DNA from: a virus
Virus record (IMG/VR): IMGVR_UViG_3300042467_002144
Coordinates: 1 to 40,193 of that record
DNA length: 40,193 nucleotides
Direction: 5' to 3' (one strand)
In this document: positions 1 to 4,853 of the stretch, piece by piece
Numbering within the stretch: position 1 is the stretch's first letter
Layout: every line of letters begins with the position of its first letter
Translations under genes and position numbers: made by a program
The notes under the pieces: model-generated
Told to the model about the DNA's origin: nothing
Seen by the model: the letters and a program-made list of their open reading frames with translations, nothing else
Databases searched by the model: none

Positions 1-108
1 TCCATTTGCTCCGCGATAACGCCCGCTAATTGGGTCGTAGTTCCATTCGGCATCAAAGCGAACAATGGAAGCGGAGAATTCCGAAAGCGGATTAAGAGGG
101 TTGGACAT
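1..108 (-). CDS. Partial structural gene, 3' end beyond the left edge
   Basis: Only the first 36 codons are visible. ATG at 108-106 starts MSNPLNPLSEFSASIVRFDA, followed by a YDPISGRYRG segment, and the frame stays open to base 1. The start overlaps the last codons of the portal gene (stop at 92-94), so the two are translationally coupled. Genes just after a portal often encode head-morphogenesis (MuF-like) or capsid-maturation proteins, and the RYRG stretch is vaguely like the start of such proteins. That is inference from position; the fragment is too short to identify. Confidence 0.6.
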   Translation of the reverse strand, partial: MSNPLNPLSEFSASIVRFDAEWNYDPISGRYRGANG

Positions 109-2191
109 CCTCGGCCTCCAGAATGTCCTTAAACCGTTCCGGCGCTTCTTGTTTCCATTGATTCAATGCGGCGTCAATATCTTCTTCCGAAATCAACGAA
201 GCCTCGTCCACATCTCCCAGCACTAGGCCGCTGGTTTTTAATGGGTCAATAGCATCCACTTTGCTGCTGACCATCTTCGCCGGGCCACGGCGCTCTGGAT
301 CAGGATCAGCTTTGCGCTTGCGAGCAACAATGGTTTGCCGCTCTTCTTTGCTCATGGCTTGAGCCTTGGCCTTAGGCAGGCACTTTGGCTTGCCCTCTTT
401 TTCTTCACGTCCGCCGCATGGCCCCATGATTTCGCCATTGGCGCCAATCCTCACCCACTCTTCTTTGAACCATTGCTCAAGATCATCGGCATGAATTTCA
501 CCTTCGTCTCCTTTGAAAGCACCGCTCAATGAACCGTGCTTCTTCTTAAACATTTGCTTATATTGCTGCACCACATAGCCGCTGGCGTAAGCTGAAGGCC
601 ATACTTTGAACTTCGCCTTGGCTGCGCTAACAGCGCGAGAATGCAGCTCCTTGTCAGTAAATTCCACGTCGCCACGCACTTTCTTAAGATCACGGGGCAG
701 GAACAAACCAGCCGAATCTTCCACTTCCCGGCTGCCATCCATCGGCAACGTGCCATTCTCTTCGTTCATTGGATCGCGACCACCAGGCGGTACAGCAAAA
801 CCACCCCGTCCTTGAGTGGAACCACCCCCACCTTGAGCAGGAAGTTCGCGAATGACAGTTGGATCGAGCGTAAGCTCCATGCTCCACTCAGAACCGCCGT
901 AACGGGCGTCCGCCACTTCCTTCGGACTCAATACGCCAAGCTGGATGTAGCGGCCATCCACAGCCGCCACACGCGCCCGCACGTCCGCCATTTCCCGTTC
1001 GTTCAGCTCAAACAATGGGTTGAAGGAGATGCGCCAAGATTCAGGCAGCTTTCCATTCGTTGGCCCCTCTTTGCTCAGCATGATGTATTCCATCAGCTTC
1101 TTAATAGGCCGTTTGAAATGGACGCTCTGATAGTCAGCAAGCGTCTTGGCAAAATCACGCTCCTCACTGCGGCCAGTCGAACCCAGTCCGCTCGGGCTTT
1201 CGCCAAACAGCACGGTATGAGGAATTTTGCTGGCGCCAATAATGTCCACGCGCAGTTTCTCCAACACTTCCCCAATGCCGCCAAAATTGCGGCTAATAAA
1301 TTCAAGCTCTTCTTTTTCTGCATCAATCGCATAACCGCGATAGATGCTCTTGCTCATATCATTCACTTGCAGCCTATCCCTAACAGCGCCTTCCTTTCCG
1401 GCTGCCAGCATCGCCGCAAGCCCCTTCACTTTATGCACAAAAATGTCAAACTCAGTGAGCAACGTAGCCGCTGAATTCAAACCCGTCCAATAATGCCGGA
1501 AGCTGTCATAAACAGTTTGAAGGCTGCTCATGCCCCAGCCATAATTCCGTTGCCTAATGCGGTAGGGCAGCCAATCCCCATCAAAACGCAAAATCCTATC
1601 TCTATGGATGTAGGACAAAGTGGGCTCGTTAATTAAATCGCCAGAAATAATTTGATAGTACGTTGCCTTGGAATAGTCGTATAGATTTTCTTCAGTGATG
1701 ACTGGTGCAATTTGCCAACGGTCTAAACATTCAATTTCTTCGATGCGACGAATGTTACGTTTATCCACTGGCATATAGGCCGGACGGCCATCATCAATAA
1801 ACAGCAGCAAACAGGCCCCGCCATAAAGGCGAGAGTTCTTTGCCGCCAAATTTAAATATTCCAGGATATATAAATCTTCAATTACTTGCTCAATGCCTTG
1901 CACTTCTTCGGCTCTAACGCCATCTCCGCCAAACAATACCTTGAAGCCTTTCCGAGTGGCTTGGTCAGCATAAATGTCAACAATGCGACGAGGCAACCAT
2001 TCACCATATAAATTCTCCAGCTCCTCTTGCGCTAGGAAAATTGTAGCCGTGGTCTTGGTGTACTGGCCCTTATCGCGACTAGTGCCCATGCCGATGAGCA
2101 CGTTTTGCAGGCCGTCAGCACGCAGTCCGCCTTCGGAAGCGTGCCCCAAATCAACCATTTCGTTATCCATTGATTTTCTTAAGGCCATCAT
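92..2191 (-). CDS. Phage portal protein with C-terminal DUF5872-like extension
   Basis: 699-residue protein. Roughly residues 35-430 look like a DUF1073-type portal: an N-terminal IVDIYADQATRKGF segment, a central SRLYGGACLLL stretch, and FGESPSGLGSTGRSEERDFA near residue 340. The portal forms the ring at the head vertex through which DNA enters. After a Gly/Pro-rich linker (about residues 455-500) comes a different module: KFKVWPSAYASGYVVQQYK, then a tryptophan-rich WFKEEWVRIG segment, then GPCGGREEKEGKPKCLP. This matches my memory of DUF5872, usually a small separate protein in cyanophages and giant viruses. ATG at 2191 or 2188. It is divergent from the 2236 gene with only 45 bases between starts, so the promoters overlap. 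Portal identity is fairly sure; the C-terminal function is unknown. Confidence 0.88.
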   Translation of the reverse strand: MMALRKSMDNEMVDLGHASEGGLRADGLQNVLIGMGTSRDKGQYTKTTATIFLAQEELENLYGEWLPRRIVDIYADQATRKGFKVLFGGDGVRAEEVQGIEQVIEDLYILEYLNLAAKNSRLYGGACLLLFIDDGRPAYMPVDKRNIRRIEEIECLDRWQIAPVITEENLYDYSKATYYQIISGDLINEPTLSYIHRDRILRFDGDWLPYRIRQRNYGWGMSSLQTVYDSFRHYWTGLNSAATLLTEFDIFVHKVKGLAAMLAAGKEGAVRDRLQVNDMSKSIYRGYAIDAEKEELEFISRNFGGIGEVLEKLRVDIIGASKIPHTVLFGESPSGLGSTGRSEERDFAKTLADYQSVHFKRPIKKLMEYIMLSKEGPTNGKLPESWRISFNPLFELNEREMADVRARVAAVDGRYIQLGVLSPKEVADARYGGSEWSMELTLDPTVIRELPAQGGGGSTQGRGGFAVPPGGRDPMNEENGTLPMDGSREVEDSAGLFLPRDLKKVRGDVEFTDKELHSRAVSAAKAKFKVWPSAYASGYVVQQYKQMFKKKHGSLSGAFKGDEGEIHADDLEQWFKEEWVRIGANGEIMGPCGGREEKEGKPKCLPKAKAQAMSKEERQTIVARKRKADPDPERRGPAKMVSSKVDAIDPLKTSGLVLGDVDEASLISEEDIDAALNQWKQEAPERFKDILEAEDVQPS

Positions 2192-4131: not shown

Positions 4132-4395
4132 GTGACTTATTGCAAATTAACTATGCAAGAAACGCAGTTTTTAATTGCGCTCCTTGAAAATGGCACCACT
4201 AGCAAGCAAACTTCCTTGCAGCTTTTAGCGGCCGAACATCTTTATATTCCCGTGCTATTGCCCAAGCTTAAGGACTATGCCAAGCGCTTGGGGCAAATTG
4301 AAGCGCTGGAGCAATGCCTCGACGAGGAAGGCACGTTTGACGACTATTGCCGGGCCCACCCCGACAGCCAAGAATGCAAGGAATATGACGTGTAG
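4132..4395 (+). CDS. Small conserved-looking protein after terL
   Basis: 87 residues with GTG start at 4132, or 80 from ATG 4153 (MQETQFLIALLENGTTSKQT), which looks like the better start. Predicted mostly helical with an acidic C-terminus (CLDEEGTFDDYCRAHPDSQE). No membrane segment and no recognised family. It follows terL by 31-52 bases on the same strand and immediately precedes the RNA island, so its transcript may run into the tRNA region. Confidence 0.65.
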   Translation: MTYCKLTMQETQFLIALLENGTTSKQTSLQLLAAEHLYIPVLLPKLKDYAKRLGQIEALEQCLDEEGTFDDYCRAHPDSQECKEYDV

Positions 4396-4562: not shown

Positions 4563-4636
4563 GCCCTTGTAGCCCAACCGGCAGAGGCAAGCGACTTAAA
4601 ATCGCTCCAGTGTGGGTTCGACTCCCACCGAGGGTA
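4563..4636 (+). tRNA. tRNA-Leu(UAA) with a short variable arm
   Basis: 74 nt. Acceptor 4563-4569 pairs with 4629-4635 (including a G-U at the first pair and another at the sixth). D stem is GCC/GGC. Anticodon stem AGCGA/TCGCT encloses loop CTTAAAA with anticodon TAA (4597-4599). T arm is GTGGG-TTCGACT-CCCAC. Discriminator base is A and no CCA is encoded. The anticodon reads UUA leucine codons. The oddity is the 5-nt variable loop (4607-4611): bacterial tRNA-Leu normally has a long variable arm. Folding is convincing; the amino acid identity is inferred from the anticodon only. Confidence 0.85.
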
Positions 4637-4649
4637 TCGTGCTAAGCTG

Positions 4650-4708
4650 CATCTACGTTCACCCCACATGGGGCGCATGACACCCACCTACGGAACGGGA
4701 GGTGGACC
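4650..4708 (+). promoter_or_regulatory. Glutamine riboswitch, downstream-peptide (glutamine-II) class
   Basis: The sequence has the plan I know for the downstream-peptide/glutamine-II aptamer. Outer helix CGTTC 4656-4660 pairs with GAACG 4693-4697. Inner hairpin CCCC-acat-GGGG spans 4662-4673. Then comes a GCATGACA strand and a pseudoknot CCACCT 4684-4689 with AGGTGG 4700-4705. The second pseudoknot strand is the Shine-Dalgarno sequence of the ORF starting at 4709, so glutamine binding should hide the ribosome site and switch translation off. The short ORF directly after it is the hallmark of this class. Known members come mainly from picocyanobacteria and marine metagenomes. Confidence 0.88.
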
Positions 4709-4822
4709 ATGGAGAGCGCCATGAACACTCTGTTGCTCGTGAAGCAGCAGCTTGAAAAAGCTGCCCGTCTTCGCAAGGCTCAGTTGGCCTCATTGCACGG
4801 CCATCGCTATTGCGTGGCTTAA
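4709..4822 (+). CDS. Riboswitch-controlled 37-residue peptide
   Basis: ATG 4709, 4 bases after the AGGTGG that serves as ribosome site and pseudoknot strand. The product is 37 residues: a short hydrophobic patch (NTLLLVKQQ), a basic amphipathic helix (QLEKAARLRKAQLASL) and the end HGHRYCVA. No signal peptide. In cyanobacteria, small ORFs behind glutamine riboswitches can encode glutamine-synthetase inactivating factors such as IF17. The basic helical character is compatible with that, but I cannot show homology. Expected to be translated when glutamine is low. Followed within 8 bases by an intrinsic terminator, so it ends its transcript. Confidence 0.82.
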   Translation: MESAMNTLLLVKQQLEKAARLRKAQLASLHGHRYCVA

Positions 4823-4829
4823 GCTCATC

Positions 4830-4853
4830 GGCCCGCTACGGCGGGCCTTTTTA
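4830..4853 (+). terminator. Intrinsic terminator of the tRNA-riboswitch-peptide unit
   Basis: Stem GGCCCGC 4830-4836 with GCGGGCC 4841-4847, loop TACG, then a run of five T. It stands 7 bases after the peptide stop and separates this plus-strand unit from the convergent minus-strand gene ending at 4851. Confidence 0.88.

Follow-up and report, generated by a model that had tools for sequence, protein, structure and literature searches.

Adjoining the 3′ side of a tRNA-Leu gene, a predicted promoter, a glutamine riboswitch aptamer, a short ORF and an intrinsic terminator follow one another on the plus strand of an IMG/VR virus record (Table 1). The window, by which we mean the whole stretch of 40,193 bases that was analyzed, also carries portal, TerL, phosphoesterase and ribonucleotide reductase genes and is syntenic with Synechococcus phage S-CBS4. 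It is a siphovirus-like cyanophage genome, from a virus of Synechococcus-type cyanobacteria. The portal protein (92-2191, minus strand) has a C-terminal DUF5872 domain (PF19197, 49.8 bits). Between TerL and the tRNA lies an 87-aa ORF (4132-4395, plus strand) whose C terminus matches the CP12 C-terminal module (PF02672, 22.8 bits against a cut-off of 22.7); this is a CP12-like GAPDH-binding tail, the rest of CP12 not being evident. Most relatives have a tRNA at the equivalent place, which in S-CBS4 is a tRNA-Thr.

Table 1. Features of the riboswitch locus in the window, with the evidence for each
Feature	Position	Strand	Evidence
tRNA-Leu (anticodon TAA)	4563..4636	+	ARAGORN, Rfam
Predicted extended -10 promoter TGC-TAAGCT	4640..4648	+	TGNTANNNT motif at fixed spacing in relatives
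Glutamine-II riboswitch aptamer	4653..4706	+	RF01704 above gathering score
Pseudoknot 5′ strand CGTTC	4656..4660	+	Published structure (PMC6698751) mapped on the match; invariant in TerL clade
P1 stem-loop CCCC-ACAT-GGGG (strands 4662-4665 and 4670-4673)	4662..4673	+	Rfam alignment; pair changes and covariation in relatives
P2 hairpin CCACCT-ACGGAACGGG-AGGTGG (strands 4684-4689 and 4700-4705)	4684..4705	+	18 distinct P2 helices, compensatory changes in columns 1-7
Pseudoknot 3′ strand GAACG, in P2 loop	4693..4697	+	Rfam alignment, PMC6698751 mapping, alignment of relatives
Predicted Shine-Dalgarno GGAG for ATG 4721, 6-nt spacing	4711..4714	+	GGGA/GGAG at same position in relatives
33-aa peptide ORF MNTLLLVKQQLEKAARLRKAQLASLHGHRYCVA, phrog_545	4721..4822	+	Homology with S-CBS4 gp007 and relatives; pN/pS; PHROGs
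Intrinsic terminator GGCCCGC-TACG-GCGGGCC-TTTTT	4830..4852	+	Lies 3′ of the ORF

The aptamer and its transcript

A cmscan search matched the full length of the Glutamine-II model (RF01704, positions 1-60 of 60) at 43.4 bits, with an E-value of 1.8e-7 computed for the whole window; the gathering score of the model is 33 bits. Apart from the aptamer, only the tRNA exceeded its Rfam threshold in the window. Sub-threshold matches at the terminator, RF00513 and TarB among them, were rejected as chance matches to its hairpin. None of 14 control genomes was positive in a covariance-model search with RF01704. Mapping the published crystal-structure description (PMC6698751) onto the match placed P1, the pseudoknot (CGUUC/GAACG), P2, the conserved GCA linker and the GGAACGG loop, all present within 4656-4705. 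The preliminary description had proposed a phage-borne riboswitch of the downstream-peptide class, and the covariance-model score, the full-length match and the small selected ORF located 3′ bear this out. Judged by its sequence, the aptamer is a genuine Glutamine-II riboswitch and a member of the known class. AGGTGG, previously taken for a pseudoknot strand, is in fact the 3′ strand of helix P2, and the pseudoknot pairs CGTTC with GAACG.

The TerL clade has 34 distinct upstream sequences, and in every one of them exactly 7 nt separate the end of TGNTANNNT from CGTTC; within spacings of 1-14 nt the hexamer pattern was found at no other distance. These sequences are related and do not represent 34 independent events. 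The upstream sequences of S-CBS4 (TGATATAGT), two further relatives (L204, TGCTAGATT; L213, TGCTACAGT) and the window (TGCTAAGCT) are sufficiently divergent for us to infer that the motif is maintained by selection. A scan for a -35/-10 consensus gave no match, as expected for an extended -10 promoter without a -35 element. Transcription is predicted to start at about 4655, the first base of the aptamer. Many relatives also have terminator-like hairpins 3′ of the ORF. Given the promoter 7 nt before the aptamer and the terminator after the ORF, we predict a stand-alone transcript of ~195 nt. Obligate co-transcription with the tRNA is an unnecessary assumption, as relatives that have no tRNA next to the unit retain the promoter motif. 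We also discarded a pairing between upstream TGATGGT and the ribosome-site sequence ACCATCA, as it is clade-specific and TGATGGT lies 5′ of the predicted transcript start.

Conservation of the RNA, the peptide and the cassette

Among 80 TerL relatives retrieved, 65 extend at least 1.5 kb beyond TerL and were used for counting. Of these 65, 58 have both the aptamer and the peptide and the other 7 have neither; no relative has just one of the two. The 58 include one contig (L193) that was first scored by script as aptamer-only, and whose peptide reads KRQLEKAA. Within the TerL clade P2 takes 18 distinct helices, each of columns 1-7 showing several types of compensated pair, and its 10-nt loop, A[C/T/G]GGAACGGG, is constant except at the second base. 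P1 also shows pair changes, and position 6/17 covaries in the phage clade (A6.C17 to G6.U17). Because the P2 loop is constant while the stem varies with compensation, and because 6/17 covaries, we conclude that there is selection for RNA structure. The pseudoknot strands are invariant in this clade, so the pseudoknot itself yields no covariation evidence. The S-CBS4 aptamer also scores above the RF01704 gathering score, and S-CBS2 has a 66-bit match 5′ of a homologous peptide. Of this unit, distant phages share the aptamer and the peptide only.

In two contigs (L180 and L185) whose TerL is 99-100% identical to that of the window, the match to the window runs as far as the tRNA region and the cassette is missing. 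These are natural deletions, from which we conclude that the cassette is dispensable. Both have a different tRNA-Leu 3′ of TerL, and the tRNA at this junction looks like a recombination joint.

The ORF previously reported at 4709-4822 (37 aa) exists, but its likelier start is the ATG at 4721, which gives 33 aa; this is where homology with S-CBS4 gp007 (MNPLALIKQQLEKAARLREAQMASLVYRGVAYVPKPHWF) begins, and the homologous leaders agree. The small basic peptide is real and under selection: pN/pS is ~0.12 over 37 distinct 39-codon coding sequences of relatives, and over 25 codons the window clade and S-CBS4 differ with pS 0.81 and pN 0.13. At tail codons 26, 28 and 29 all changes within the window's clade are synonymous, although the events are few. 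Contrary to the earlier statement that the peptide has no recognised family, residues 1-23 match phrog_545 (E 6.2e-7; 1.4e-11 for the S-CBS4 homologue). With the S-CBS4 homologue as query, tblastn gave matches in 228 cyanophage records, many of them T4-like, and in all four T4-like phages examined the peptide gene lies between nrdB and talC. Most phrog_545 members end in a YRGxxY motif that resembles DUF4278. In the window clade the tail HGHRYCVA stands in place of YRGVAYVPKPHWF and the YRGxxY motif is lost. The window peptide had no match in Pfam, DUF4278 (PF14105, cut-off 25.3 bits) included; the S-CBS4 homologue (P0001) scores 12.9 bits for DUF4278 and other phage peptides up to 26.8.

One scan of genome contigs for cellular relatives, which would miss host peptides that are too divergent, returned a single locus, on a MAG contig (L268; NHGE01000043.1, labelled Euryarchaeota archaeon TMED129). 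It has the nested-ORF and peptide arrangement of T4-like cyanophages described below and is probably a misbinned phage contig.

Proposed mode of action and competing explanations

The downstream-peptide motif of Synechococcus CC9902 is reported to bind L-glutamine, and a Prochlorococcus switch of this class to raise expression (PMC6316151, PMC6698751). An alternative structure that hides the ribosome site is presumed for the class (PMC6698751). As the published type-2 switches are ON switches, the window switch is likely a glutamine ON switch as well. We consider it probable that the locus is a self-contained phage unit of promoter, aptamer, ORF and terminator, from which glutamine favors production of a 33-aa peptide that acts as a protein-binding effector. 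The phage extended -10 promoter would start an RNA that opens with the Glutamine-II aptamer; L-glutamine would stabilize the CGUUC/GAACG pseudoknot between P1 and P2, and this would favor translation of the basic, predicted helical peptide from 4721 before transcription ends at the terminator. The peptide would be produced at high levels of host glutamine, most likely as a protein-binding effector.

Folding of the clade leaders gave no consistent switch at the ribosome site, and holding the pseudoknot strands left the site unopened on average. Accessibility with the pseudoknot strands blocked differed from that without by a mean of -0.24 and -0.12 kcal/mol (37 and 35 distinct leaders, respectively); in the second run (35 leaders) the pseudoknot opened the ribosome site by >0.3 kcal/mol in 14%. 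A strand-exchange model, in which the 5′ CGUUC pairs with GAAC of the Shine-Dalgarno or start region, was rejected, as the accessibility calculation gave no consistent opening of the ribosome site.

A rather unlikely reading casts the peptide as an inhibitor of host glutamine synthetase, a phage counterpart of the inactivating factors IF7 and IF17. According to PMC6316151, glutamine riboswitches control gifB, which encodes IF17 and whose product has DUF4278 as its N-terminal part, and an IF-like regulatory role is suspected for the DUF4278 peptides found behind type-2 switches. YRGxxY is present in related phage peptides, which are weakly DUF4278-like by the scores given above. Against this, the same source reports DUF4278 to be dispensable for IF17 function, and a search for solved structures (PDB) related to the window peptide found none. 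The loss of the DUF4278-like motif from the window's peptide weakens the idea further, as that motif was its best basis.

The preliminary description took AGGTGG for the ribosome site of ATG 4709, which would imply that ligand-stabilized folding hides it and that the switch is OFF. We regard this as improbable. GGAGGT (4698-4703), 5 nt ahead of ATG 4709, is indeed a perfect Shine-Dalgarno sequence, and no variant of the window clade has lost either element. But the site lies inside P2, a helix formed without ligand according to published in-line probing (PMC6698751), and ~13 kcal/mol would be needed to open it, compared with 6.2 for the site serving ATG 4721. Relatives outside the window's clade have no Shine-Dalgarno-like sequence in this strand, the homologous start is at 4721, and known switches of the Glutamine-II class are ON. 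ATG 4709, upstream and in frame, is the less likely of the two starts.

We likewise give little credence to the possibility that the unit is mainly a regulatory RNA with a secondary ORF. The predicted transcript is short, structured (fold z -2.9) and stands alone, and the 244-nt Yfr6 RNA, which has a 33-aa frame, was originally reported as non-coding (PMC1242208). Against this are the strong purifying selection on the amino-acid sequence and the fact that it is only the aptamer and the peptide that distant phages retain. In layout, the predicted window unit resembles Yfr6 of Prochlorococcus MED4 and SS120, a short stand-alone transcript with a downstream-peptide RNA as its 5′ region and a 33-aa frame (PMC1242208, PMC2864571). 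A TATA element precedes the mapped Yfr6 start, and the RNA is reduced on nitrogen depletion (PMC1242208). Promoter motif, aptamer, 33-aa ORF and terminator are all present in the window; the comparison is one of layout, between a host gene and a phage unit whose transcript is predicted from sequence and would be shorter than Yfr6 (~195 versus 244 nt).

That the aptamer is a decayed host-derived relic which no longer senses glutamine is very improbable, since the RNA is under selection, with compensatory P1 and P2 changes and an invariant pseudoknot strand and promoter, even though some near-identical phages lack the cassette.

Related systems in phages and hosts

The window aptamer has all conserved elements of the Glutamine-II class and, like its members, a small ORF just 3′, but it lies on a cyanophage genome rather than a cyanobacterial chromosome. 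The phrog_545 peptides of the T4-like phages syn9, S-SM1, S-BM1 and S-RIM2 and of the siphoviruses S-CBS2 and S-CBS4 belong to the same family as the window peptide. They too are preceded by glutamine aptamers, of the Glutamine-II type in S-CBS2 and S-CBS4 and of tandem divergent forms in the T4-like phages. They differ from the window unit in keeping one or two YRGxxY motifs and, in T4-like phages, in having tandem aptamers with a nested ORF. Host peptides behind glutamine switches also end in DUF4278-like YRGxxY, as do most phrog_545 members. The methylophage Melnitz likewise carries a glutamine riboswitch, glnA-like (PMC9004378), but that switch is closer to type 1, is associated with tmRNA and belongs to a phage that infects OM43 bacteria. 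The gifB 5′ UTR is another glutamine ON switch for a small nitrogen-control protein (PMC6316151), but with a type 1 aptamer and a 149-aa protein.

In the T4-like phages S-SM1, syn9, S-BM1 and S-RIM2 (L263:1214-1445, L264, L266 and L267) and at more than 40 IMG/VR loci, an ORF is nested in the P1 loop of tandem glutamine aptamers. In three of the isolates examined the tandem divergent aptamers 5′ of the peptide score below threshold, at 21-29 bits; in the fourth, syn9, where both aptamers contain a nested ORF, they give no match. The insert in the P1 apical loop is a 49-69-aa ORF, arranged as CGTTCATCCC-[ATG ... TGG GAC GCA AAC GAC TGA]-AGGAACGG. It belongs to phrog_504, often ends in WDAND, and has homologues in 311 cyanophage records. 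Pairing of the P1 strands across the ORF scored 5.93, compared with 4.70 for shuffled partners (0/2000). The body of the ORF is coding (pS 0.68, pN 0.31 and pS 0.57, pN 0.22), and its last five codons, which are the 3′ half of the aptamer, show zero synonymous change. The ATG of the ORF is frequently part of the P1 stem (CCCATG/CATGGG, CTTATG/CATAAG). It is possible that the nested phrog_504 ORF and the downstream phrog_545 peptide form a reciprocal switch. Literature searches gave no description of this arrangement, which is weak evidence of novelty.

One viral contig (L017:6132-6345) has a group I intron (RF00028, 83.2 bits) ~750 nt 3′ of a Glutamine-II aptamer. On four marine viral contigs (L144, L146, L157 and L173) a Glutamine-II-like aptamer is followed by a ~120-aa ORF (MKKLALALAATLASTPAMAGPYVNVEANSSYTG...) whose product looks like a secreted or outer-membrane protein; in L144 and L157 a minimal 16-18-aa YRG peptide lies between the two.

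Phage-borne glutamine riboswitches are already in the literature (PMC9964418, PMC9602691, PMC9004378). The papers found name them in T4-like cyanophages and a methylophage and discuss no peptide behind the cyanophage ones. Here a Glutamine-II switch is linked to a single conserved peptide family across cyanosiphoviruses. The promoter, ORF and terminator can all be examined experimentally with S-CBS4 and its cultured host Synechococcus CB0101, and phages that have lost the unit naturally are already known for comparison.

Sensor type and peptide family are each found elsewhere as well, but the unit is conserved across the phage lineage, which suggests that such phages read host nitrogen status. 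We raise, tentatively, the idea that two unrelated cyanophage types keep a dedicated glutamine-sensing module whose phage-specific phrog_545 peptide serves to steer host nitrogen metabolism, the T4-like version being a two-output device in which the ligand-bound fold would hide the inner ORF start and favor the outer peptide. If the peptide acts on nitrogen assimilation, these phages would both read and steer the nitrogen status of their hosts through a 195-nt gene.
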